Source: an uncultured Myxococcales bacterium (GTDB taxonomy: Bacteria; Myxococcota_A; UBA9042). From it: 64,000 nt of DNA. The stretch's first letter is position 1; each line of letters begins with the position of its first letter. The stretch lies in contig CAIXGW010000251.1 of assembly GCA_903919145.1 (NCBI GenBank), forward strand, positions 1-64,000, read 5' to 3'. Position numbers and translations under genes: made by a program. Positions 38,553-60,720 of this stretch are shown here, piece by piece. Under the pieces are notes generated by a model. It was not told the DNA's origin. It was given only the letters and a program-made list of their open reading frames with translations, and searched no databases.

Positions 38553-40430
38553 TTAGCCGTTGCGCTTGGTGGACGGCGGCCGGAGCACTGGTGCTCGCAA
38601 ACCCGTGGGAGCTCTGCCAGTTGGCGGGGGCGGGATGAAGGGACCCTGAGGTGGTGGACTGTGGGACGGTGGACCGTGGGGCGGCGGACCGTGGGGCGGC
38701 GGATTGTGAGACGGCGGACTGTGGGGCGGCGGTGCATCAGCCTGGCGAGGGTCGACGAAGGCTGGGCCATCGGGCAAGGTGGGATCGGTGCGCTCGACCT
38801 CCAGGACGCGCCTCGGCAGAGTCGCCCCATCCAAGTCGCCGGAAGACTGCCAGCGCACCACACCAGGGTGCAGGGTGGCTTTTTCGGGGCGAACACCCTC
38901 GACTGCAGCCACCTCGGCCCGCGGGACCTCGTACACCGTCAGGGCGTGCTCTTTGCCCTTGACGTGCACCGGCGGCAGCAGGCGGGCCGGCACCGAGCGC
39001 TGGGTCCCGTCATAGCAGCCCTGGGTAATGATGATCTCGACCCCAAACTCCTTGGTCAAGTCTTGAACACGGCTGGCGATATTGACCGTGTCGCCAATGA
39101 CCGTGTACTCCATCTTGCGGTCCGAGCCGATGTTGCCGGCAATCACCATGCCCGAGTGAATGCCAATGCCGATGCGGATGTGCACCCCGCCCTTTCTGGC
39201 CTGGTCTTCGTTGAAGCGATCGAGCTCCTGCAGCATGCGCTGGGCCGCCCGCACTGCCCGCAAGGGGTCATCGGGTCGCGATAGCGGCGCACCAAAGATC
39301 GCCATCACCGCGTCGCCAATGAACTTATCGACAATGCCTCCCTCGTCAAACACGATCTCGACCATGCGCTGGAGGTAGTCGTTGAGAAACGCCACCACTT
39401 CTTCGGGCTGCATGCGCTCAGACGTGCTGGTGAAGCCGCGAATGTCAGAAAACAGGACCGTGGCGTAGACCTTGGCCGACAGCCGCCCGCCATCCTGCAG
39501 CTGCAGGGCCCGCTGGACTACGTCTTTGGGCACATACTTCTGAAAGATCTGGCGGACGTGCCTCTCTGACTCGCGCGAGGCGTTCATGGCGTCGTACAGG
39601 CGCGCATTCTCAATGGCGATCGCCGCCTGGTCGGCAAAGGCCTGCAGCAGGTTGAGCGATTCCTGGCTGAATTCCTGTTCTGAGACCGAGCTATCGACGT
39701 AGATGCAGCCCACCACGTCGTCCTTGACCCGCAGTGGCGCGCACATCAAGGAGCGGATATCCAGACCGGCGATGGTCTGCGACATGGAGGCCAGATCGCT
39801 TTGGGCGTCGATGGTCAGCACCGGCTCGCCCGAGCTCTCCACCGATGCAATGACGCTGCGCGACACCTGTTTTTCGGGGCGCTCAATAGCGTGCCAGTCG
39901 CGGCTGCGCGCCACCTTGAATTCCTGGCCTGGCGAGGTGAACAGGATCAGAAAGCCGCGCTCGGCGTTGGTCAGGCCAATGCCTTTTTCTACCACCAATT
40001 CGAGCAGTTGGTGGGTGTCGAGCACGCCAGAAACGGCTTTGCTGATGTCGAGCAGTGACTTGAAGTTGCGCAGTCGCCGCGACATCTCCGCTGCGTCAGC
40101 ACTGCCGGTGCCCGACTGCGGCACCGCGGCCCGCAGCTCTTCTGGACCGAGCAGGAACGTCAGGACAGACAGCCCAAGCTGCACTTGATCGCCGTGCTGC
40201 AGGCGATGCTCGCTGACGGCCAAGTTGTTGCAGTAGGTGCCGTTGAAAGAGCCCAGGTCTTTAAGAACCCACTGGGCGCCCACCCTGCGCACTTCGCAGT
40301 GGCGCCGCGACAGACTGGGGTCGTCAAGGTGAACGTCGGTCTCGCGCGACCGCCCAATGACCAGCGGCCGCCCCGGGTCCAGATCGACGGTGCGAATGTC
40401 GCCTTCGGTGTTGATGTGGAACGTAGCCAC
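38553..40430 (-). CDS. FHA-GAF-class III adenylate/guanylate cyclase
   Basis: The 625-residue signalling protein has an FHA domain (about 22-95; IGRSRETDVHLDDPSLSRRH, SFNGTY), a GAF domain (about 135-275) and a short coiled linker. The class III cyclase domain (about 318-510) has metal-binding aspartates D329 in FSDIRGF and D373 in IGDAVMA, substrate-type lysine K369 in DKFIGD, and GDTVNIASRV. All catalytic residues appear present. The tail is rich in Pro and His (repeated PPPHG-type pentapeptides). FHA binds phosphothreonine, so a Ser/Thr kinase may control it. The start is a GTG at 40430 with GAGG 11 bases upstream; no ATG gives the full FHA domain. The product is soluble. Confidence 0.9.
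   Translation of the reverse strand: MATFHINTEGDIRTVDLDPGRPLVIGRSRETDVHLDDPSLSRRHCEVRRVGAQWVLKDLGSFNGTYCNNLAVSEHRLQHGDQVQLGLSVLTFLLGPEELRAAVPQSGTGSADAAEMSRRLRNFKSLLDISKAVSGVLDTHQLLELVVEKGIGLTNAERGFLILFTSPGQEFKVARSRDWHAIERPEKQVSRSVIASVESSGEPVLTIDAQSDLASMSQTIAGLDIRSLMCAPLRVKDDVVGCIYVDSSVSEQEFSQESLNLLQAFADQAAIAIENARLYDAMNASRESERHVRQIFQKYVPKDVVQRALQLQDGGRLSAKVYATVLFSDIRGFTSTSERMQPEEVVAFLNDYLQRMVEIVFDEGGIVDKFIGDAVMAIFGAPLSRPDDPLRAVRAAQRMLQELDRFNEDQARKGGVHIRIGIGIHSGMVIAGNIGSDRKMEYTVIGDTVNIASRVQDLTKEFGVEIIITQGCYDGTQRSVPARLLPPVHVKGKEHALTVYEVPRAEVAAVEGVRPEKATLHPGVVRWQSSGDLDGATLPRRVLEVERTDPTLPDGPAFVDPRQADAPPPHSPPSHNPPPHGPPPHGPPSHSPPPQGPFIPPPPTGRAPTGLRAPVLRPPSTKRNG
38653..38727 (-). repeat. 15-bp tandem repeat encoding a Pro/His-rich tail
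   Basis: Five consecutive 15-bp units start at 38653, 38668, 38683, 38698 and 38713. On the minus strand they encode pentapeptides of the form P-P-(P/S)-H-(S/G/N) near the C terminus of the cyclase. Confidence 0.85.
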
Positions 40431-46258: not shown

Positions 46259-49200
46259 ATGCGCTCTAGCAATCCCAGCCGCGTGCTCGGAAATTGGTCC
46301 TGGCTTGCTGCCTGTTTGACGCTGCTGCTCGGTTTGTCGGCTGCGGGCTGCACCGAAGAACCCGCCAAGCCCGGCACCACGACGACAGGAGACGTGGAAG
46401 AATCCGAAGACGGCGACGCGATCGGCCCCGGCAGCGATGCCAGCGCCGACGGCAGCGACAGCGGTACCGCCAGCGACGCCGACGCCCAGATCGGCTGCCA
46501 AACCGACGACCAATGCAAAGAATTTCCGGTCAGCGCCACCAAGTGCCAGAAGGCGGTCTGCAACAAGACCACTGGCAAGTGCCAAGCCGGTCTGGCCGAT
46601 GACGGCGCCAGCTGCGACGACGGCAAAGAATGTACCACTGGCGACAAGTGCGACAAGAGCGGCACCTGCGAGGGCCAGACCGCCTGCGTAGCGCTGCTGG
46701 ACGGCACCAGTGTGGTCAATCCGTGCAAGGTTGGCAGCTGCGGCGACGCCGGCAAGTGCGAGTACGTCAACAAGACCGGCGTGGCCTGTGACGACAACAA
46801 CCCCTGCACTTCTGGCGAAGTCTGCGTGGCCGGCGGCAAGTGCGGCACTGGCCAGCCCAAGGTGTGCAAAGACGACGGCAACAGCTGCACCGTAGAGACC
46901 TGCGACGCCAAGACCGGCGAGTGCAGCTCCAACCTGCAGGCCGATGGCACCGCTTGCGATCCCAAGAACCTGTGCGTGGGCGAAGCCACCTGCACCAAGG
47001 GCGAGTGCAAGGGCACCGCGGTGACGTGCAAGCTCTCTAACAACCCCTGCGCGCTGGCGTATTGCGACCCCCTCAAGGGCTGCGCAGAGAAGCCGATCGC
47101 CGACGGTCAGGCCTGCAACGACGGCGACTCCTGCTACGAGGGCGAGAAGTGCGTCGCCGGCAAGTGCGCCGGTGCCCTGGTCAAGGACATCGACGACGGC
47201 AACCCCTGCACCAAAGACGATTTTGACGGCAAGGCCGCGACCTGCAAGGTGGACCACACGGCGCTTAGCGGCAACGAGTCCTGCGACGACGGCCAAGCCT
47301 GCACCAAGTCGGACAGCTGCAAGGGGGGTACCTGCAAAGGCCTGGATCTGGTGTGCAATGACGGCAACGCCTGCACCCAAGATCAGTGCGACCCCACCAA
47401 GTGCGACGCCAACAAGGTCGGCTGCGGCCAGTGCACGGCGATCGCCCTCAAAGACGGCCAGGCCTGCGAAGACGGCAACAAGTGCACCGGCAAGGACGCT
47501 TGCAAGTCCGGAAAATGCGAAGGCATCGATCTGCTGACCACCGGCGGCTGCGACGACAAGAACGTCTGCACCAACGACCTGTGCCAGCCCGGCAGCGGCT
47601 GCTACAGCGCTCCGGTGGCCGCGGGCACCAACTGCAACGACGGCGACAGCTGCACCGAAGTCGACAAGTGCGCTGGGTCGACCTGCAAGGGCACGCCGCG
47701 CGACTGCAAGGACAGCGACCCGTGCACCAACGACATCTGCGACGCCAAGGCCGTTGACTACCAAAAAGCCTGCACTCACCAAGGCTTTGAAGGGCCCTGC
47801 GACGACGGCAGCAAGTGCACCTCTGGCGACCTGTGCCAGGGCGGCGTCTGCGCCGGCGCCGAGGTCAAGTGCGACGACAAGAACCCCTGCACCATCGATG
47901 TTTGCGACACGATCAAGGGCTGCACCTATAAGCTGGCTCCCGGCGGCGTGACCAAGTGCGACGACGGGCTGAGCTGCACGACCAACGACTACTGCGACGC
48001 CGGCAAGTGCGTGGCCGAAAAAGACCTGTGCGAAGCCTGCAGCGCCGACAGCTTTTGCGTGCAGAAGTATGGCGTGGGAGACAAGTGCACCGGTCTGATG
48101 AAGTGCGTAGAAGCAGCCGGCAAGGGCAAGGTCTGCTCGATCGACGCCAAGACCGTGGTCACTTGCGACGCCAACAATGACACGCCGTGCAGCCTGAACA
48201 CCTGCGACCCCAACTCGGGCGCCTGCAAGCCGCAGCTCAAGGTCGAAGGCCTGTCTTGCACCTCGACCGACAAGTGCATCACCGACGCCACCTGCAGCAA
48301 GGAAGGCAACTGCCTGGGCGCCAGCCTGGATTGCGACGACAAGAACAGCTGCACCACCGACAGCTGCGATCCCAAGCTGGGCTGCCTGTTCAAGCCCAAG
48401 ACCGACGGCGACAAGTGCGACGACGGCACCATCTGCACCCCGACCGAGGGCGACAAGTGCGACAAAGGCCAGTGCGTCAACCCGGTCAACACCTGCGTGT
48501 GCGCCAGCGACGCCGACTGCGGCAAGTTTGAAGCCCAGGACGGCAACCTGTGCAATGAGAAGTACAAGTGCACCGCCGACAGCAAGGGCAAGTTCTGCAA
48601 GCCGGTGGTCGGCACCGAGACCGTGTGCGACAGCTCCAAGGACACGCCGTGCGTGGTCAGCACCTGTCAAAAAGACAGTGGCCAGTGCAAAGCCATCTCC
48701 AAGGCCGACAACGCCACCTGCAACGACGACAACATGTGCACGCTGGGCGAGCTGTGCACCGCAGGCCTGTGCAAGTCCAGCAAGTTGCTGGTCTGCGACG
48801 ACGGCAACGCCTGCACCGACGACATCTGCGACCCGAGCTCGGGCTGCTTGAGCGGCCCCAAGCCCGGCGCCGGCAAGTGCGACGACGGCGACAAGTGCAC
48901 CTCTACCGACGTGTGCAAGAATGGCAAGTGCCTGGGCATCAAGGTGATCTGCGACGACGGCAACGACTGCACCCTGGATCTGTGCTCCAAGAAAGACGGC
49001 TGCAGCAACCAGCTGGACAATACCCTGCCCTGCACCGACGGCGACCCGTGCTCGATCAACGACGCCTGCGTAGACGGCACCTGCAAGGCCACGCCGCTGA
49101 CCTGCGACGACAAGAACCCGTGCACGGTCGACGCCTGCGACGGGCTGGGCGGCTGCAAGAACATCGTGGTCGACGGCAAGGACTGCGACGACGGCGACCC

Positions 49201-52200
49201 GTGCACCGTCAGCGACGTGTGCAAAGTGGCCAAGTGCTCTGGCGTGGTCAAGACCTGCGACGACGGCAATGCCTGCACCGAAGACGCGTGCAAAGAAGGC
49301 ACCTGCGCCTACCTGGCCGGCGTGGGCAAGCAGTGCGATGACGGCAACGCCTGCACCTCCGGCGACAAGTGCGACAAGAGCGGCGCCTGCACCGGCGTGG
49401 ACACCCCCTGCAGCGACACCAACGCCTGCATCCAGTTTCCCAACGGCTGCCTGCCGGCCAAGGGCTGCATACCGGTGACCAGCGATGGCATCACCTGCGA
49501 CGACGGCGACGCCTGTACCTGGAAAACCACCTGCAAGGGCGGCGCGTGCAGCGGCGCGACCATCGAATGCAACGACAGCAATGTCTGCACCAACGACGCC
49601 TGCGACAAGGCAAAAGGTTGTCAGATCACCCAGAACACCTGCGACGACAAGAACCCTTGCACCACCGACACCTGTGACAAGGTCAAGGGCTGTCTACACG
49701 CCGCCGTCGATGGCGCCCTGTGCGAGGACGGCGACGCCTGCACCGAGAAGACCCAGTGCAACGCCGGCAAGTGCGTGGGCACCGCGGTCAAGTGCGACGA
49801 CAAGAACGGCTGCACCATCGACTCTTGTGCCGAGGCCACCGGCTGCGTGTTCCTGCCCGGCGTCAACACCCAGGTCACCTGCGACGACGGCGACCTGTGC
49901 ACCACCGACGCCTGCAAGGAAGGCACCTGTGTAGGCACCAAGAAGGTCTGCGACGACGGCAATCCCTGCACCATTGACGAGTGCAACACCCTCAAGGGCT
50001 GCGTCATCACCGACGCCAAGGAAGGCACCACCTGCGACGACGGCGACGACTGCACGGGCTCGACCCAGTGCCAGTCGGGCCAGTGCTCGGGCGGCAAGCT
50101 GACCTGCCCGACCTGCGCAGAAGACAAGGACTGCGTCATCTATGACAACAACGACAAGTGCGACGGCGCCTATACCTGCAAACCCAACGCCAATGGCCTC
50201 AAGCAGTGCTACTTGAACCCCGACCCGGTGGTGTGCGACTCCACGGGCGACTCGCCGTGCAAGAAGAACAAGTGCCAGCCGGCGACCGGCCAGTGCGTCA
50301 TGCAAGAGGCTATCAACGGCACCAAGTGCGAAGACGGCATGGGCTGCACCAGCGGCGACCTGTGCATGAACGGCGCCTGCAAGAGCGGCGCACCCGCCGA
50401 CTGCTCGGCCGCGGCCAATGCCTGCAACACGGCCGCCTGCAAGGAAACCGGCAAGCCGGGCGAGTTTGCCTGCGTTGCCTTGCCCAAGGATGGCTCGCCG
50501 TCCTGCGATTCTGACAACAACGGTTGTACCGCCAACGACTTCTGTGCAGCCGGCAAGTGCGTTGCTGGCCTGCCCGTCGACTGCACTGGCATTGCCGGCG
50601 AGTGCGAGATCGGCTCGTGCAAGTCCACGGGCGCGTCTTCGTTCCAGTGCATCACCGCCCCCTCCAAAGACGGCGACCCCTGCAAAGACGGCCAGCTGTG
50701 CACCGATGGCGACTTCTGCAAGACCGGCAAGTGCCAGGCCGGCACCCAGCCCCACGACTGCAGCGCCCTGACCTCTACTTGCGCCACCGGCACCTGCGAC
50801 AAGACGGGCAACGGCGGCCTTGGCGCCTGCATTCCCAAGCCGCAAAATGAGGGCAAGGTCTGCGATGCCGACGGCAATGGCTGCACTACCAATGACATCT
50901 GCTCTGCCGGTGCCTGCGTCCAGGGAGCACCGCCCGACTGCCAGGGAGAGACTTCTACCTGCGCCACCGGAGCGTGCCAGTCGACCAGCGCCGCCACCTA
51001 CAAGTGCGTGGGCGTGCCCAAGAAGAACGGCTTGCAGTGCGAAGCTGACAGCGACGGCTGCACCATCAACGACTCTTGCCAGGCCGGCAAGTGCACGGCA
51101 GGCGCTGCGCCCGATTGCTCCAGCAAGAACAGCGTCGACGGCTGCCAGGTCGGCAAGTGCAAGTCGACGGGCACTTCCTCCTACTTCTGCGACATCGGCT
51201 ACGCCAAGTCGGGTCAGACCTGCGACAGCGACAAGAACGGCTGCACCCAAAACGACACCTGCAACGGCCTGGGCGCCTGCATCTCTGGCGCGCCGGTGGA
51301 TTGCTTTGGCGTTACAACGGGCTGTGCCCAAGGCACCTGCAAGAGCACAGGCGGCAACACCTACAGCTGCGAAGGTACTCCGAAGAACGACGGCTCGCCC
51401 TGCGACGCCGACCAGAGCGGCTGCACCAAGGATGACAAGTGCGCCGCGGGCAAGTGCGTGGCCGGCGCCAAGGTCGACTGCACGAACCCCAAGGCACCGC
51501 CGACCGCCTGCCTTGCGGCGACCTGCCTCTCAAGCGGCTCGACGACCTACCAGTGCGACAACGCTCCGCTCAAGGATGGCACGGGCTGCAACGCCGACGA
51601 CAACGGCTGCACCGTCAGCGACAGCTGCCAGCTGGGCTTCTGCGCAGCCGGCGACATGCAGACCTGCGCTCAGCTTGCCGGATCATGTGCCGACGGCGCC
51701 TGCAAGTCGACCGCGAGCAATAGCTACAAGTGCGACCTGGTGCCCAAGGAGTCGTACCCGACGCTGAACCCGCCCGTGGCCTGCACGCCGACCGACGCGC
51801 CAACCAAGTGCGCGACCGGCTACAAGTGCCAGGAAACCGACACCAAGCAGAACCTTGGACGCTGCGAGTCGACCAAGCAGGTCGGCTGCAACGACGGCGA
51901 GAAGTGCACCGAAGCCGACGTCTGCGCGGGCGGCAAGTGCACCGGTGGCACCACCAAGGACTGCAACGACTTTGACTCCTGCACCCTGGACTCCTGCCTG
52001 GCCGGCAAGTGCGCCAACACGGCCGTCCAAGGTTGCGCGACTTGCATCAACGAGGCCTTTGAGGACCTGCCGGTCGAGTGGACCGACACGACCAACAGCG
52101 CCGCCTATGTGAAGTGGACCCTGTCCAAGACGCATCCCTACCTGGGCGTGCAGCACATGCGGGTCAAGTGGCAGGGCCCGAGCAAAGAGCCAGACGCTGG

Positions 52201-53572
52201 ACCGGCTGAGGCGACCCTGATGCACCGCCGCCTGTTCTTGCAGGATGGCGTCCCGGCGACCCTGCAATTCTATGTGTCGGCGGAGTTCGGCTCAGACTCG
52301 TGCGGCTCGGACGACCTGCAGGTGCGCATCAACAATGTCAAGGTCTGGGAGTTGTGCGACAAGGTTCAGCAGGCAGACTACCTGCCCAACAGCACCTACC
52401 GCCGGGTCGAGATCAACCTACAGAAGTATGTGGGGGCACCTGCAGACTTGGAGATCGTTGCGATTGCCGACCAGAGTGACACAGGGAAGGGCTTGATTGA
52501 CCTCGACAACATCCGCTTGACCGGCGCCTGCGGTCCGGCGTGCCTGGGCGCAGCCTTTGAGCCGGCCAATTTGATCGAAGGCGATGTATTGGTCGACAAG
52601 GTGGCCGAGCAGGTGCCCCAGCCGTGGACCATCAGTTCGACCAACGCCGGCTTTACCACCTGGCTGGCGGCGGCAGGCACGGGCCACAGCGGCGTGGGCT
52701 ATCTGGAGGCCAAGTACGTGGGCAAGCCCAGCACCAACAAGGCGGAAACGGCCAAGCTGGTCATCTCCAAGATCCAGGTGACCACGGGAGACAAGCTGTG
52801 GCTGTCGCTGCGCGCACCCGACGTAGGCGATGCAGGCTGCGGAGCGGACGATTTCGTCATCAATGTGGCCGGCAAAGAGGCGTACCGCCGCTGCAATGCT
52901 CTGGCCAACTGGCAGACGATCTCTGTGGATCTGCCGGCAGGACAGACCGTGGACGTAGAGCTGCTGGCAATCTCTGGCAACGCCACCGCCACCAAGGGCA
53001 CCTGGCAGGTCGACGACATCGTGGTGTCGGGCAAGTGCATGTACGGCTGCCTCTACACCGGCTTTGACGTCGGCAACCTGAGCAGCCAGTGGAGCACGGT
53101 CGCCCCCGAGCCGCAGCTGTGGCCGGCTTGGAAGATCACAACCGATCTGTTCAAGTCGCCCAACGCGTCGCTGCTGACCCAGTACGCCGCTCCTGCCTCG
53201 CCCAAGGCCAATGCGGCGAACCTGGCGGTCACCAAGTTCAGGGTCAAGATGCCGGTCCTGGGCGGTGTGTTCAGCTACTGGGCCAACGTGTACACGGCCA
53301 AGCCCGGTGCCTGCCCCGAAGAGTCCTTTGCCGGAATGTTTGCCACCACCCAGGCCCTGCCGGCCTCTTACGATCCGCTGGCAGACAATTCCAGCTGGTC
53401 CTTCCATATCTTCCGCCACTGCGCCAATACTTCCGGCTGGGAAAAATTCCTCAGCGAATCGCCCAGCCAGCTTAGCGGTCGCAACATTGGCCTGGCCATC
53501 ATGGCCGCGCGCCGCAAAGACAGCCCGGCCTTGAAGGTCTACGTCGACGAAGTCCTGCTGATGTGCCGCTGA
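46259..53572 (+). CDS. Giant cysteine-rich lipoprotein with three repeat zones
   Basis: The 2,437-residue secreted protein starts at an ATG with GGAGG seven bases upstream. The signal ends AAGC (Cys31), then an Asp/Ser/Gly/Thr-rich spacer runs to about residue 78. Zone 1 (about 78-1370) is made of short units of the form CDDGNxCTxDxCDxxxGC, matching the Dictyostelium CTDC repeat (Pfam PF00526 as I recall it), interspersed with longer DC-NLCNG-VCD modules. Zone 2 (about 1380-1840) has longer repeats of about 60 residues with CDADxxGCTxND and GxCKSTG motifs. Zone 3 has three modules of about 169 residues (from about 1927, 2095 and 2264), each starting C-x3-FE/FD and resembling jelly-roll carbohydrate-binding or MAM-like folds. 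It is probably a long disulfide-stiffened stalk carrying terminal binding domains on the cell surface. Confidence 0.88.
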   Translation: MRSSNPSRVLGNWSWLAACLTLLLGLSAAGCTEEPAKPGTTTTGDVEESEDGDAIGPGSDASADGSDSGTASDADAQIGCQTDDQCKEFPVSATKCQKAVCNKTTGKCQAGLADDGASCDDGKECTTGDKCDKSGTCEGQTACVALLDGTSVVNPCKVGSCGDAGKCEYVNKTGVACDDNNPCTSGEVCVAGGKCGTGQPKVCKDDGNSCTVETCDAKTGECSSNLQADGTACDPKNLCVGEATCTKGECKGTAVTCKLSNNPCALAYCDPLKGCAEKPIADGQACNDGDSCYEGEKCVAGKCAGALVKDIDDGNPCTKDDFDGKAATCKVDHTALSGNESCDDGQACTKSDSCKGGTCKGLDLVCNDGNACTQDQCDPTKCDANKVGCGQCTAIALKDGQACEDGNKCTGKDACKSGKCEGIDLLTTGGCDDKNVCTNDLCQPGSGCYSAPVAAGTNCNDGDSCTEVDKCAGSTCKGTPRDCKDSDPCTNDICDAKAVDYQKACTHQGFEGPCDDGSKCTSGDLCQGGVCAGAEVKCDDKNPCTIDVCDTIKGCTYKLAPGGVTKCDDGLSCTTNDYCDAGKCVAEKDLCEACSADSFCVQKYGVGDKCTGLMKCVEAAGKGKVCSIDAKTVVTCDANNDTPCSLNTCDPNSGACKPQLKVEGLSCTSTDKCITDATCSKEGNCLGASLDCDDKNSCTTDSCDPKLGCLFKPKTDGDKCDDGTICTPTEGDKCDKGQCVNPVNTCVCASDADCGKFEAQDGNLCNEKYKCTADSKGKFCKPVVGTETVCDSSKDTPCVVSTCQKDSGQCKAISKADNATCNDDNMCTLGELCTAGLCKSSKLLVCDDGNACTDDICDPSSGCLSGPKPGAGKCDDGDKCTSTDVCKNGKCLGIKVICDDGNDCTLDLCSKKDGCSNQLDNTLPCTDGDPCSINDACVDGTCKATPLTCDDKNPCTVDACDGLGGCKNIVVDGKDCDDGDPCTVSDVCKVAKCSGVVKTCDDGNACTEDACKEGTCAYLAGVGKQCDDGNACTSGDKCDKSGACTGVDTPCSDTNACIQFPNGCLPAKGCIPVTSDGITCDDGDACTWKTTCKGGACSGATIECNDSNVCTNDACDKAKGCQITQNTCDDKNPCTTDTCDKVKGCLHAAVDGALCEDGDACTEKTQCNAGKCVGTAVKCDDKNGCTIDSCAEATGCVFLPGVNTQVTCDDGDLCTTDACKEGTCVGTKKVCDDGNPCTIDECNTLKGCVITDAKEGTTCDDGDDCTGSTQCQSGQCSGGKLTCPTCAEDKDCVIYDNNDKCDGAYTCKPNANGLKQCYLNPDPVVCDSTGDSPCKKNKCQPATGQCVMQEAINGTKCEDGMGCTSGDLCMNGACKSGAPADCSAAANACNTAACKETGKPGEFACVALPKDGSPSCDSDNNGCTANDFCAAGKCVAGLPVDCTGIAGECEIGSCKSTGASSFQCITAPSKDGDPCKDGQLCTDGDFCKTGKCQAGTQPHDCSALTSTCATGTCDKTGNGGLGACIPKPQNEGKVCDADGNGCTTNDICSAGACVQGAPPDCQGETSTCATGACQSTSAATYKCVGVPKKNGLQCEADSDGCTINDSCQAGKCTAGAAPDCSSKNSVDGCQVGKCKSTGTSSYFCDIGYAKSGQTCDSDKNGCTQNDTCNGLGACISGAPVDCFGVTTGCAQGTCKSTGGNTYSCEGTPKNDGSPCDADQSGCTKDDKCAAGKCVAGAKVDCTNPKAPPTACLAATCLSSGSTTYQCDNAPLKDGTGCNADDNGCTVSDSCQLGFCAAGDMQTCAQLAGSCADGACKSTASNSYKCDLVPKESYPTLNPPVACTPTDAPTKCATGYKCQETDTKQNLGRCESTKQVGCNDGEKCTEADVCAGGKCTGGTTKDCNDFDSCTLDSCLAGKCANTAVQGCATCINEAFEDLPVEWTDTTNSAAYVKWTLSKTHPYLGVQHMRVKWQGPSKEPDAGPAEATLMHRRLFLQDGVPATLQFYVSAEFGSDSCGSDDLQVRINNVKVWELCDKVQQADYLPNSTYRRVEINLQKYVGAPADLEIVAIADQSDTGKGLIDLDNIRLTGACGPACLGAAFEPANLIEGDVLVDKVAEQVPQPWTISSTNAGFTTWLAAAGTGHSGVGYLEAKYVGKPSTNKAETAKLVISKIQVTTGDKLWLSLRAPDVGDAGCGADDFVINVAGKEAYRRCNALANWQTISVDLPAGQTVDVELLAISGNATATKGTWQVDDIVVSGKCMYGCLYTGFDVGNLSSQWSTVAPEPQLWPAWKITTDLFKSPNASLLTQYAAPASPKANAANLAVTKFRVKMPVLGGVFSYWANVYTAKPGACPEESFAGMFATTQALPASYDPLADNSSWSFHIFRHCANTSGWEKFLSESPSQLSGRNIGLAIMAARRKDSPALKVYVDEVLLMCR

Positions 53573-56225: not shown

Positions 56226-56264
56226 GCCGCAGCCTGCCACCTCGCTTGTAGATTGGAGATCGCC

Positions 56265-57965
56265 ATGACCGCCCCCTCCTCCCTGCCCGATGCCGCCGAC
56301 AACGCCGGACCGCTGACCCTTGCCCACCGCGGCTGGGCGCAGAAGCTGCTCAGCGGTGCCAAGAAGAAAGGCTTGCGCCAAGCAAAGTTCCTGCGCTCCA
56401 CCGGGGCCGAAGTCGCCGACCTCTACCTGCCCGCCGATGGCTCGGGAGATGAGCACTACCTGCAGGCCCTGGGCTTTCCCGGCCAGTACCCCTACACCCG
56501 CGGCGTTCAGGCAACGATGTACCGCGGGCGCTTTTGGACGATGAGGCAGTACGCCGGCTTTGGCACCGCCACCGAGTCCAACCAGCGCTACCGCTACCTG
56601 CTGCAGCGCGGCCAGACGGGCTTGAGCGTGGCCTTCGACTTGCCAACCCAGATGGGCTACGACCCCGATGACGGCATGGCGCAAGGCGAAGTGGGCAAGG
56701 TCGGAGTGTCGATTGCCTCGGTAGAGGACATGCACCTGCTCCTGCAGGACCTGCCTCTGGACCAGGTCAGCGTCTCGATGACCATCAATGCCACGGCGAC
56801 CACGCTGCTGGCGTTCTTGGTGGTGGTGGCCGAAGAGCGCGGCATCGATCCCAGGCTGCTGACCGGCACCGTCCAAAACGATATCCTAAAAGAATACATG
56901 GCGAGAGGCACTTACATCTACCCGCCGCGGCCTTCGATGCGCCTGATCACCGACCTGTTCAGCTGGTGTGCGGCGCAGGTGCCCAAGTGGAACACCATCA
57001 GCATTTCCGGCTACCACGTCCGCGAAGCTGGCTGCGACGCCGCCCAAGAGATCGCCTTCACCCTGGGCGATGGCATTGCCTATGTGCAAGCCGCGGTGGC
57101 GGCGGGCCAGGATGTGGACGACTTTGCCGGACGCTTGGCCTTTTTCTTCAACGGTCACAACAATTTCTTGGAGGAAATTGCTAAGTTCCGCGCGGCACGG
57201 CGCCTGTGGGCCACCATCATGCGCGAGCGTTTTGGTGCCCAAAAGGAAGAGAGCTGCAAGCTGCGGTTCCACACCCAGACCGCCGGATCGATGCTCACTG
57301 CCCAGCAGCCGGACAACAACATCGTGCGGGTCACGCTGCAGGCGCTGGCGGCGGTGTTGGGCGGCACCCAGTCGCTGCACACCAACTCGCGAGACGAAGC
57401 GCTGGGGCTGCCGACCGAAGCGGCGGCGCAGATCGCTTTGAGGACCCAGCAGATCATTGCCTACGAGTCGGGGGTGGCCGATGCCGTCGATCCGCTGGCC
57501 GGGTCTTACCTGATAGAGCAGTGGACCGATGACCTGCAGCGCGAAGCTCAGCGCTACCTTGACCGCATCGACGACATGGGCGGGATGGTCGCAGCCATCG
57601 AAAAAGGCTATCCGCAGCGGGCGATCCAAGACAGCGCCTACCGCTGGCAGCAGGCCATCGAGCGCGCCGAGCAGGTCATCGTCGGCGTCAACCAGTTCAA
57701 GCAGGACAATGAGCCGCCGACCCCGGCTCTGACCCTGGACCCGCGGGTAGAGCCCGACCAGGTGGCACGGGTGCAGGCGCTGCGCGCTGGGCGCGACTCG
57801 GCCAGGTGGGCCGCGGCGATGGAAGCATTGAAGGCCGCCGCCGCCGGCACCGACAACTTGCTGCCAGCGGTCGTCCAGGCAGCCCGGGCGAGGGCGACGA
57901 CAGGCGAGATCAGCCACGCGCTCCGCCAGGTGTTTGGCGTGCATCAAGAAGTCCTGGTAGTGTAA
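56265..57965 (+). CDS. Methylmalonyl-CoA mutase large (catalytic) subunit
   Basis: The 566-residue protein is the TIM-barrel part of an acyl-CoA mutase. [77 protein letters not shown] and [15 protein letters not shown] are all family hallmarks. The cobalamin-binding domain (with DxHxxG) is absent, so it must pair with a separate small subunit not found in this window. It interconverts methylmalonyl-CoA and succinyl-CoA or a related pair such as isobutyryl-CoA; the motif WTMRQYAGF favours methylmalonyl-CoA. GGAG precedes the ATG. The kinase fusion begins 4 bases after its stop. Confidence 0.9.
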
Positions 57966-57969
57966 TTAG

Positions 57970-60720
57970 ATGCTTGAACCGCTGATCTACCGCTGGGATC
58001 TGCACACGCGCGCCGACCTGGATGAGACCTGGCAGCTGCTCTCTGATACCGACCGCTTCAACCAGGTCGCCGGTTTTGACCTGCACTTTGAGCTTGAAGC
58101 GCGCCAAGGGGATCGCGCCGAGCGGCTGGGCACCATGCAGCACCTGGGCCTGGAAGTGCGCTGGCGCGAGCTGCCCGTGCTCTTTGCAGCGCCGCACCAC
58201 TTCGCCATCGAAAGAATCTACACCGCTGGGCCGCTGAGCCGGGCAGTGCACCGCATGGAATTGCAGGAAGACCCCAGCGGCGGCACCCGGGTGCGCGCTG
58301 AGGCGGAGTTCTGGCCGCGCAGCCGCTGGGTGCGACCGGTGCTGCAGGCCGACCTGGCGCTGACCTTTCGCGGCAAGTTTGGCAACGGCCTGCATCAGAT
58401 GCTGGCGACGCTGGATGCCCAGCCGGGTACCCTGGCGGCAGAGGCGCCACAGCGCAAGGCTCCGCCCCTGAGCGCCGCCGCGGCCGAGCTGCTGAGCACC
58501 GGGCTGGCCCAAGTGCAGTCGGAGGCGCTGCGGCTCAAGCTCGACCACTGGCTGCGCACGGCGCCGCTGGCCGATCAGGCACGCATTCAGCCGCTGCGCC
58601 TGGCCAAGCGCTGGCAGCTGCCCGACCAGCAGGTGACGGTTGCGCTTTTGCAGGCGACGCGCGCTGGACTGCTGCAGATGCAGTGGGAATTGCTGTGCCC
58701 CTCTTGTCGGCTGCCCGGCGCGGCTTCTGCACAGCTGCAGCTCGACCGCAGCCAAGCCCACTGCCCAGCCTGCGATGTGCGCTATGACGCCTCTCTGGCC
58801 GACTCGGTAGAGCTGACCTGGAAGCCAGTGACGGCGCTGCGGGCTCAGGTAGGGCAGATCGCCTGCCTGTCGAGCCCGGCGCGGATGCCGCACATCGCCG
58901 CGCAGATGGTGCTGCAGCCTGGCGAAGAATTCGCTTGGAAATTACAGCTCCTACCCGGCACCTACCACCTTCGCGGCTGGCCACAGCTCGACCGGGTAGC
59001 GCTGACGGTGCGCGCCGACGCGCCGGCCCGAGCGCTGACGGTGCTTGTGGGGCCGCTAGCGCTCGATCCCCCGGCGCTGCGCAGCCGCTCTGGGCGGTTG
59101 GTCTTGAACCTGCGCTCCAAGATGGCCGAGCCAGTGACGCTGGTCGTGGAGAGGGCCTGGGTCGATCCCCTGGCGCTGACGGCCGGCAAGGCCCTGGAAT
59201 GGCCCGAGGTGGCGCCCTGGCTGCCGGCCGACGCGCTGCAGCCCGGGGTTGCGGTCGAGGCCTTTGCCGGGCCGCTGCTGGCCGTGCAGGTGCGCCGCGG
59301 TGGTGAAGCAGGCGAACGGGCGGTACAGGCTTGGCTAGAGACCGCTGGAGTGCGGGCCCTGCAGGTGACCTCTGGCTGGGTGCTGGCGACCCTGCCGGGG
59401 CTGGACCAGCTGGTCTCAGCCGTGCAGCCGCTGCAGGGGGCCCCGTGGCTGACCTGCGCAGTTGGCTGGGGCAGCGTGCTGGAGCTGGCGACGGCCCAGG
59501 TGCGCATGGCCTCTGGGGCGCGCCTGCAGGACCTGGTGGCACTGTGCCAACAAGGCGAGCCTGGGCAGGTGCTGCTACAACCAGAGGCCGTGGCCAAGCT
59601 TTCTGCTGGGGACGGCCTAGAACTGCTGGACCAGGATGGCCAATGGTCTTGGCCGGCGCCGCTGACTCGCCGGACGCCGCCGCTGCCCATGCCCATGCCC
59701 ATGCGCAACCCGCTGCCAGCGGCCTTGGGCGATCTGATCGACGAGCAGTTCCGCCTGGGGCCGGTGCTTGGCCAGGGCGGCTTTGGCGTAGTGCATGCAG
59801 CCCACGACCTGCGGACTGGCCGCGCCGTGGTGGTCAAGCTGCTGCGGGCCGAGGTGGCCGAAGATCCCATCCAAGTTCAGCGGTTCTTTGACGAAGGGCG
59901 GATGACGGCGCGCCTGGACAGCCCCTACGTAGTGCGGGTGCTGGAGTGGGGCCTGTCGGCCGAAGGCCGGCTGTTTTTGGTCATGGAGAGGCTGCAGGGC
60001 AGAGAGCTGGCCGAAATGATCAACGATCTTGGGTCGCTGGACCCGCTGCGGGCCATCCGCTTTACCTGGCAGGCCCTACAGGGGCTGGGGCAGGCTCACC
60101 AGCTCGGCCTCATCCATCGCGATGTCAAACCTTCCAATCTGTTTGTGATCGGCGAGGACACGCCCGACGAACGCGTCAAAGTCATCGATTTTGGTATTGC
60201 CCTGGATCTCACCGGGCGGGTGCGACCGCTGGAGCGCGCCGGCAGCATCATCGGCACCCCTACCTACATGGCGCCTGAGCAGCTGCTGGGCGAAGCGCTG
60301 GATGGCCGCAGCGACCTGTATTCGCTGGCGCTGGTGCTCTACGAAGCACTTGCCGGCACGCCGCCGTTTGTCGGGCCGACAGCCCTGGCGCTGGCGATGG
60401 CCCGCCTGCAGCAGCCCGCGCAACCGCTGGAGCAGGCCGTGTGCCAGCCGCTGCCGCAGGGCCTGTCGGCCCTGGTCGATCAAGCTCTGGCCGCCAGCCC
60501 CCAGGATCGACCGGCAAGCGCGCAGGCCATGGCCAAGGCGCTGGAGGAGATCCGCGACCACCAGGGCAGCGTCTGCGATTGGCAGGCCTGCTGGCAGGCG
60601 CACCGCCAGCCAAGCAAGCACGCTGAGCCGCAGTCGACGCGGACATCCACCGACACCCAGGCCGAGCTGACGACCCTGCCCTTGGGAGTCCGTCCGCCGC
60701 CTGCCCAGAGGGAACCGTGA
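57970..60720 (+). CDS. SRPBCC-DUF5939-degenerate cyclase-Ser/Thr kinase fusion
   Basis: The 916-residue protein starts with an SRPBCC-like domain (about 1-150). Residues about 165-400 match DUF5939 as I recall it: RWQLPDQQVTVALLQATRAG, LLCPSCR, AHCPACDVRYDA, ELTWKP, and PGEEFAW-LPGTYHLRGW. A region (about 425-565) then aligns with a class III nucleotide cyclase but lacks both metal aspartates (LLAVQV for FTDLVG, TSGWVLATL for IGDAVMAVF). After a PMPMPM linker a full kinase domain follows (about 590-880), with GQGGFGVVH, K623, HRDVKPSN, DFG at 740-742 and APE. There is no transmembrane segment. It lies 4 bp after the mutase gene and overlaps the next by 4 bp. Confidence 0.85.
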   Translation: MLEPLIYRWDLHTRADLDETWQLLSDTDRFNQVAGFDLHFELEARQGDRAERLGTMQHLGLEVRWRELPVLFAAPHHFAIERIYTAGPLSRAVHRMELQEDPSGGTRVRAEAEFWPRSRWVRPVLQADLALTFRGKFGNGLHQMLATLDAQPGTLAAEAPQRKAPPLSAAAAELLSTGLAQVQSEALRLKLDHWLRTAPLADQARIQPLRLAKRWQLPDQQVTVALLQATRAGLLQMQWELLCPSCRLPGAASAQLQLDRSQAHCPACDVRYDASLADSVELTWKPVTALRAQVGQIACLSSPARMPHIAAQMVLQPGEEFAWKLQLLPGTYHLRGWPQLDRVALTVRADAPARALTVLVGPLALDPPALRSRSGRLVLNLRSKMAEPVTLVVERAWVDPLALTAGKALEWPEVAPWLPADALQPGVAVEAFAGPLLAVQVRRGGEAGERAVQAWLETAGVRALQVTSGWVLATLPGLDQLVSAVQPLQGAPWLTCAVGWGSVLELATAQVRMASGARLQDLVALCQQGEPGQVLLQPEAVAKLSAGDGLELLDQDGQWSWPAPLTRRTPPLPMPMPMRNPLPAALGDLIDEQFRLGPVLGQGGFGVVHAAHDLRTGRAVVVKLLRAEVAEDPIQVQRFFDEGRMTARLDSPYVVRVLEWGLSAEGRLFLVMERLQGRELAEMINDLGSLDPLRAIRFTWQALQGLGQAHQLGLIHRDVKPSNLFVIGEDTPDERVKVIDFGIALDLTGRVRPLERAGSIIGTPTYMAPEQLLGEALDGRSDLYSLALVLYEALAGTPPFVGPTALALAMARLQQPAQPLEQAVCQPLPQGLSALVDQALAASPQDRPASAQAMAKALEEIRDHQGSVCDWQACWQAHRQPSKHAEPQSTRTSTDTQAELTTLPLGVRPPPAQREP

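Follow-up and report, generated by a model that had tools for sequence, protein, structure and literature searches.

Within the window, by which we mean the whole 64,000-nucleotide stretch of DNA that was analysed, positions 57970-60717 of the + strand form one open reading frame of 916 amino acids, whose ATG (at 57970) lies 4 nt past the stop codon that ends a methylmalonyl-CoA mutase gene. From the N- to the C-terminus, the encoded protein is composed of an SRPBCC domain, a DUF5939 region, a degenerate class III cyclase domain, a linker and a PknB-like Ser/Thr kinase domain (Table 1). A sequence-only reading had proposed this order of SRPBCC, DUF5939, cyclase-like region and kinase, and the profile searches bear it out: Pfam PF19363 and PF00069 matched the window protein, PF10604 was found in its relatives. 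PF00211 was found in none of them. An assembly or frame artefact of one MAG was ruled out, as full-length orthologues (36-52% identity) are present in many assemblies.

Table 1. Position of the gene upstream and of the segments of the 916-residue protein in the window
Feature	Residues	Position	Strand	Evidence
Methylmalonyl-CoA mutase large-subunit gene, directly upstream		56253-57965	+	PF01642, E 7.7e-224
SRPBCC (START-like, Polyketide_cyc2) domain; putative ligand-binding input	1-150	57970-58419	+	PF10604 in relatives; AlphaFold2 secondary structure
DUF5939, N-terminal part; helical segment and Cys motif	168-290	58471-58839	+	PF19363; Cys conservation
DUF5939 region, beta-rich second half	300-400	58867-59169	+	AlphaFold2 strands 309-395; conserved in orthologues
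Degenerate class III cyclase domain	421-546	59230-59607	+	hhalign; AlphaFold2; Foldseek against PDB; residue table
Pro-rich, variable, disordered linker	547-590	59608-59739	+	Lowest identity of all segments; pLDDT < 50 at 548-569
PknB-like Ser/Thr kinase domain	597-855	59758-60534	+	PF00069; PDB fold match; invariant catalytic residues
Thr/Ser-rich disordered C-terminal tail	883-916	60616-60717	+	pLDDT < 50

The SRPBCC domain, which AlphaFold2 predicts to end in a long C-terminal helix (122-150), matches PF10604 in 13 of the 19 family members (best E 1.7e-10), the window protein alone falling below the threshold. DUF5939 is recognized at residues 177-285 (E 9.5e-14; 51.6 bits for a gathering cut-off of 22.5), the match covering only positions 9-118 of the 281 of the PF19363 profile. 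It contains a CPxC...HCxxC motif (C243, C246, C265 and C268) that is invariant in the 19 members and looks, by its sequence, like a zinc ribbon. This four-Cys motif (58696-58773, + strand) is common to the cyclase and the kinase forms of the family.

The kinase domain (PF00069 at 597-855, E 3.4e-43, 148.4 bits) had been credited with a complete set of catalytic motifs, and indeed 16 full-length orthologues show no variation at the Gly-rich loop positions, Lys623, Glu642, Asp718, Asn723, Asp740 and Glu770. As this set includes the Lys, the Glu, the catalytic Asp, the Asn and the Asp of DFG, the kinase is predicted to be active. Its closest solved structures are PknB and PknA of M. tuberculosis, PknB being the best with 37% identity. 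The kinase domain is thus similar to that of PknB-type kinases, but the window protein has no PASTA repeats and carries soluble inputs instead; it scores 253 bits with the PknB_PASTA_kin model, under the cut-off of 450. The TOMM kinase/cyclase fusions (TIGR03903) likewise combine a kinase and a cyclase in one chain, but membership of that family was rejected, only the kinase part (616-862) being matched, with 151.8 bits compared with an equivalog cut-off of 705.75.

The sequence-only reading suspected a cyclase at about residues 425-565, and this was substantiated by structure prediction. The AlphaFold2 model of residues 398-578 has a mean pLDDT of 85 (94-98 in the core) and a predicted order of beta-alpha-beta-beta-alpha-beta-beta-alpha, which in the model corresponds to the order of class III cyclases, the alpha1-alpha2 stretch being shortened. 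Among the PDB matches listed by Foldseek for this model, all are class III cyclases, including Rv1900c (1ybu; TM 0.57 by query, rmsd 2.8 A). Comparison by hhalign of the 19 homologous regions with true DUF5939 cyclases gave an E-value of 9.1e-6 across some 100 columns, the secondary structure elements being in agreement; in a rerun with controls, the true profile scored 31.8, as against at most 17.2 for 200 column shuffles and 8.7 for the reversed profile. Another fold was ruled out by the structure search and this shuffle-controlled profile comparison. In a profile search of PDB sequences, Rv1900c also ranked first, with a non-significant E-value (0.13), and PF00211 was absent from the matches of all 19 family members up to an E-value of 1.

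The residue register of the active site was taken from the alignment to the FTDLxGS, VKTxGD and VNxAAR motifs. As the hhalign alignment begins after the first metal-binding Asp (D1), the position of D1 was placed with the help of strand beta1 and of the RGG that is still present. As claimed beforehand, both metal-binding aspartates are missing, D1 corresponding to V441 (59290-59292) and D2 to G469 (59374-59376); the base-reading Lys is replaced by Q465, and the transition-state Asn and Arg by Q520 and A524. In the 19-member clade, D1 is occupied by V, I, L or P throughout; at D2, an Asp remains in two distant members alone, L108 and L109, seemingly less eroded forms. The domain has the class III fold and lacks the metal Asp pair, the Lys/Asn/Arg residues and a Pfam match, confirming, as far as sequence can tell, a class III domain that would be catalytically dead. 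We consider it rather likely that the sensor now acts through phosphorylation instead of cAMP, the cyclase fold being retained for coupling or dimerisation.

It had also been suggested that the dead cyclase is a nucleotide sensor; sensing ATP, cAMP or another nucleotide, it would gate the kinase. The class III fold is retained, an RGG motif stands where the phosphate-contacting DLxGS loop would be (G444 is conserved in 17 of the 19 clade members), and in a second group of the family, in which the kinase is N-terminal, most members still have the Lys and the DYFG Asp. In the clade of the window protein, however, the Lys, the Asn, the Arg and D1 are all replaced, as is D2 except in two members, and the idea finds no support there, since all known nucleotide contacts are gone. 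Nucleotide sensing would thus be more plausible for the N-terminal-kinase group than for the window's clade, and we regard it as an improbable explanation of the present protein.

The same reading described the cyclase as apparently decayed, which is misleading for the domain itself. In complete orthologues, the pseudo-cyclase has about 0.8-1% gaps and a mean pairwise identity of 38%, as has the SRPBCC domain, compared with 24% for the linker. Its pooled pN/pS, uncorrected for saturation, is 0.43, which lies above the values of the kinase (0.32) and of SRPBCC and DUF5939 (0.36-0.38) and below that of the linker (0.53). The domain is therefore maintained, under purifying selection. It might nevertheless be a relic or a passive spacer tolerated after the output switch: its pN/pS is the highest of the folded domains, yet below that of the linker, and none of the former active-site residues is conserved. 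The near absence of gaps, the confidently predicted core and the presence of the domain in every complete C-terminal-kinase member of the family argue against this, making it a rather unlikely explanation compared with a retained coupling or dimerisation element.

About 20 orthologues in Myxococcota have the same layout, with a dead cyclase in all. They occur in 15 of the 22 genomes of the window's taxonomic family (36-52% identity for complete cases) and, outside it, in further families of the same phylum (L067, L075, L076, L077 and L234). The named records are mostly uncultured Myxococcales or Deltaproteobacteria MAGs, several being from lakes or groundwater according to isolate names. One C-terminal-kinase orthologue (L264:2387-5092, + strand, G082:C414) has a frame split near the border between DUF5939 and the pseudo-cyclase, apparently due to a frameshift or an assembly error. 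Long N-terminal extensions of L067 and L069 were discarded by inspection as high-GC open frames without coding character.

The mutase and putative sensor-kinase genes are probably co-transcribed, and the pair is kept in four genomes of the genus; in another genus (g6), an acyl-CoA dehydrogenase gene lies near the orthologue. No operon partner conserved beyond the genus and no conserved cyclase gene were found among the neighbours of the orthologues. The window also encodes an intact class III cyclase domain (38937-39464, - strand; VLFSDIRGFTS, metal Asp present) in a 629-aa frame some 19 kb away from the sensor-kinase gene, and a 2437-aa Cys-rich protein made of CDDGNxCT-type repeats (46259-53572, + strand). 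Such nearby Cys-rich repeat genes were dropped as candidate partners because the DNA pattern of the motif, with 202 matches genome-wide, is too abundant. The genome of the window has one DUF5939 protein and 19 PF00211 matches, and cAMP signalling is therefore probably present independently. This abundance of cyclases, together with the fact that class III cyclases act as dimers, leaves room for a pseudo-cyclase that heterodimerises with an active class III cyclase and, by allosteric regulation, links the kinase and cAMP pathways. In mammalian C1/C2 and sGC alpha/beta, partner subunits complete an active site, but the pseudo-cyclase could not do so, because the metal half and the Lys/Asn/Arg half are both lost; with no conserved cyclase neighbour either, we find such a heterodimer unlikely, and retain the switch of output to the fused kinase as the preferred reading.

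The input module is found with an active cyclase elsewhere. SRPBCC-DUF5939-class III adenylate cyclases (PF10604, PF19363 and PF00211), which occur in Mycobacterium, Myxococcota, Alphaproteobacteria, Chloroflexota, Verrucomicrobiota and others, share with the window protein the same order of inputs and a homologous third domain; they have an intact D/K/D/D/N/R(K) set and no kinase, whereas the window protein has lost the set and gained a kinase. We compared kinase fusion and cyclase state in 208 non-identical DUF5939 proteins from Myxococcota genomes and the 80 best public relatives, taking D, D, N and R or K as the full cyclase set. Without a kinase, 139 of the 151 assessable proteins have the full set; with a fused kinase (C-terminal, n = 20; N-terminal, n = 26, two of which could not be assessed), 0 of 44 do. 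The N-terminal-kinase protein L219 keeps both Asp but has lost the Lys, the Asn and the Arg. Fisher's test gives p = 5e-33 for the association of kinase and dead cyclase, the proteins being non-independent. On the tree, there are three to four supported independent contrasts, of which the informative ones all go in the expected direction and none is opposed, too few to reach significance. The pattern is thus strong, but is statistically unproven after correction for descent, because few independent events underlie the counts.

Dead cyclases also exist without a fused kinase: L069, L111, L112 and L114 inside the window's clade, and L247, L270 and L272 in a separate small clade. At the level of sequence, a kinase therefore implies a dead cyclase and the reverse does not hold. 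The first four are SRPBCC-DUF5939-pseudo-cyclase proteins of about 595 aa (L069 within a longer open frame), and no kinase gene was found near them. They weigh against a coupling role, since without a kinase the domain must still serve some use or, at the least, persist. L247 (741-3893, - strand, G352:C48) is a degenerate stand-alone SRPBCC-DUF5939-cyclase gene; a separate Ser/Thr kinase gene, whose product has a hydrophobic C-terminal segment, lies directly downstream of it on the same strand. This neighbour backs a partnership with a kinase only anecdotally; for its relatives L270 and L272, kinase genes are found only several kb away. In another protein (L073:55-2769, - strand, G263:C376), SRPBCC-DUF5939 carries, as its fusion partner in place of the cyclase, a pyridine nucleotide-disulphide oxidoreductase (PF07992, E 2.6e-45), apparently another output swap of the same input module.

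The N-terminal-kinase group, found in Myxococcota and Planctomycetota (e.g. L121, L116 and L137), resembles the window protein in combining a Ser/Thr kinase, SRPBCC-DUF5939 and a degenerate cyclase in one chain, with no full cyclase set in any assessable member; it differs in that the kinase is at the opposite end and of another lineage, and that erosion of the cyclase is less advanced. One fully supported clade unites the C-terminal-kinase proteins with the kinase-less pseudo-cyclases. N-terminal-kinase proteins are scattered over at least two or three positions in the tree, a single clade of them being rejected (AU p 0.0004, simple model, 46 rows). The tree of kinase domains also has two lineages, the C-terminal ones lying beside stand-alone kinases of the same family with moderate support. 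Such joining of kinases from two lineages at opposite ends, each time with a dead cyclase, favours an output switch. In an alternative history, a kinase was joined early, and once, to the N-terminus of a protein with an active cyclase, after which each line lost one of the two outputs; either history leaves one output per protein. A general rule of one output for SRPBCC-DUF5939 receptors, whereby joining a kinase at either end, more than once, led to inactivation of the cyclase and retention of its fold as the module passing the ligand signal to the kinase, is a tentative proposal.

For the window protein, we propose the following scheme. It would be a soluble one-component sensor kinase, in which the SRPBCC pocket and DUF5939 sense a signal. 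SRPBCC is a fold for lipid or hydrophobic ligands, and this fold and the acyl-CoA-metabolism neighbours, both weak indications, hint at a hydrophobic or acyl-type metabolite. In relatives, the input module would govern the C-terminal class III cyclase; in the window's lineage, catalysis would have been lost and the fold kept, the signal passing to the PknB-type kinase added at the C-terminus. We infer that control runs from the input to the kinase. PknB-type kinases are generally activated through dimer-driven trans-autophosphorylation, and the retained cyclase fold most probably acts as a mechanical coupling and/or homodimerisation element setting this reaction; dimerisation of the pseudo-cyclase is suggested by the habit of the class III family and by PknB-type activation. 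Redirection from cAMP synthesis to phosphorylation, as put forward from the sequence, is well supported by the active paralogues in the same family and genomes (G012, G013, G015 and G018 encode both a window-type protein and an active-cyclase DUF5939 paralogue) and by the lack of a full set in all assessable kinase fusions.

The architecture had been considered unfamiliar. Among 5.39 million open papers, none mentioning DUF5939 or a pseudocyclase was found; the protein is not a one-off, given its orthologues. The parts are known, and their combination and the recurrent loss of the cyclase appear undescribed. To our knowledge, catalytically dead bacterial cyclases are little described as signalling modules, while pseudokinases are much studied. 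The family is a natural experiment in which one input module is wired to cAMP or to phosphorylation, sometimes both in one genome, and in which the kinase forms would retain the former output domain as a working component. With it, one can test how receptors of bacteria exchange one output for another, and why attaching a second enzyme goes with the death of the first. If kinase fusion does lead to cyclase inactivation with retention of the fold, these proteins would represent a recurrent class of bacterial pseudo-cyclase-coupled sensor kinases.
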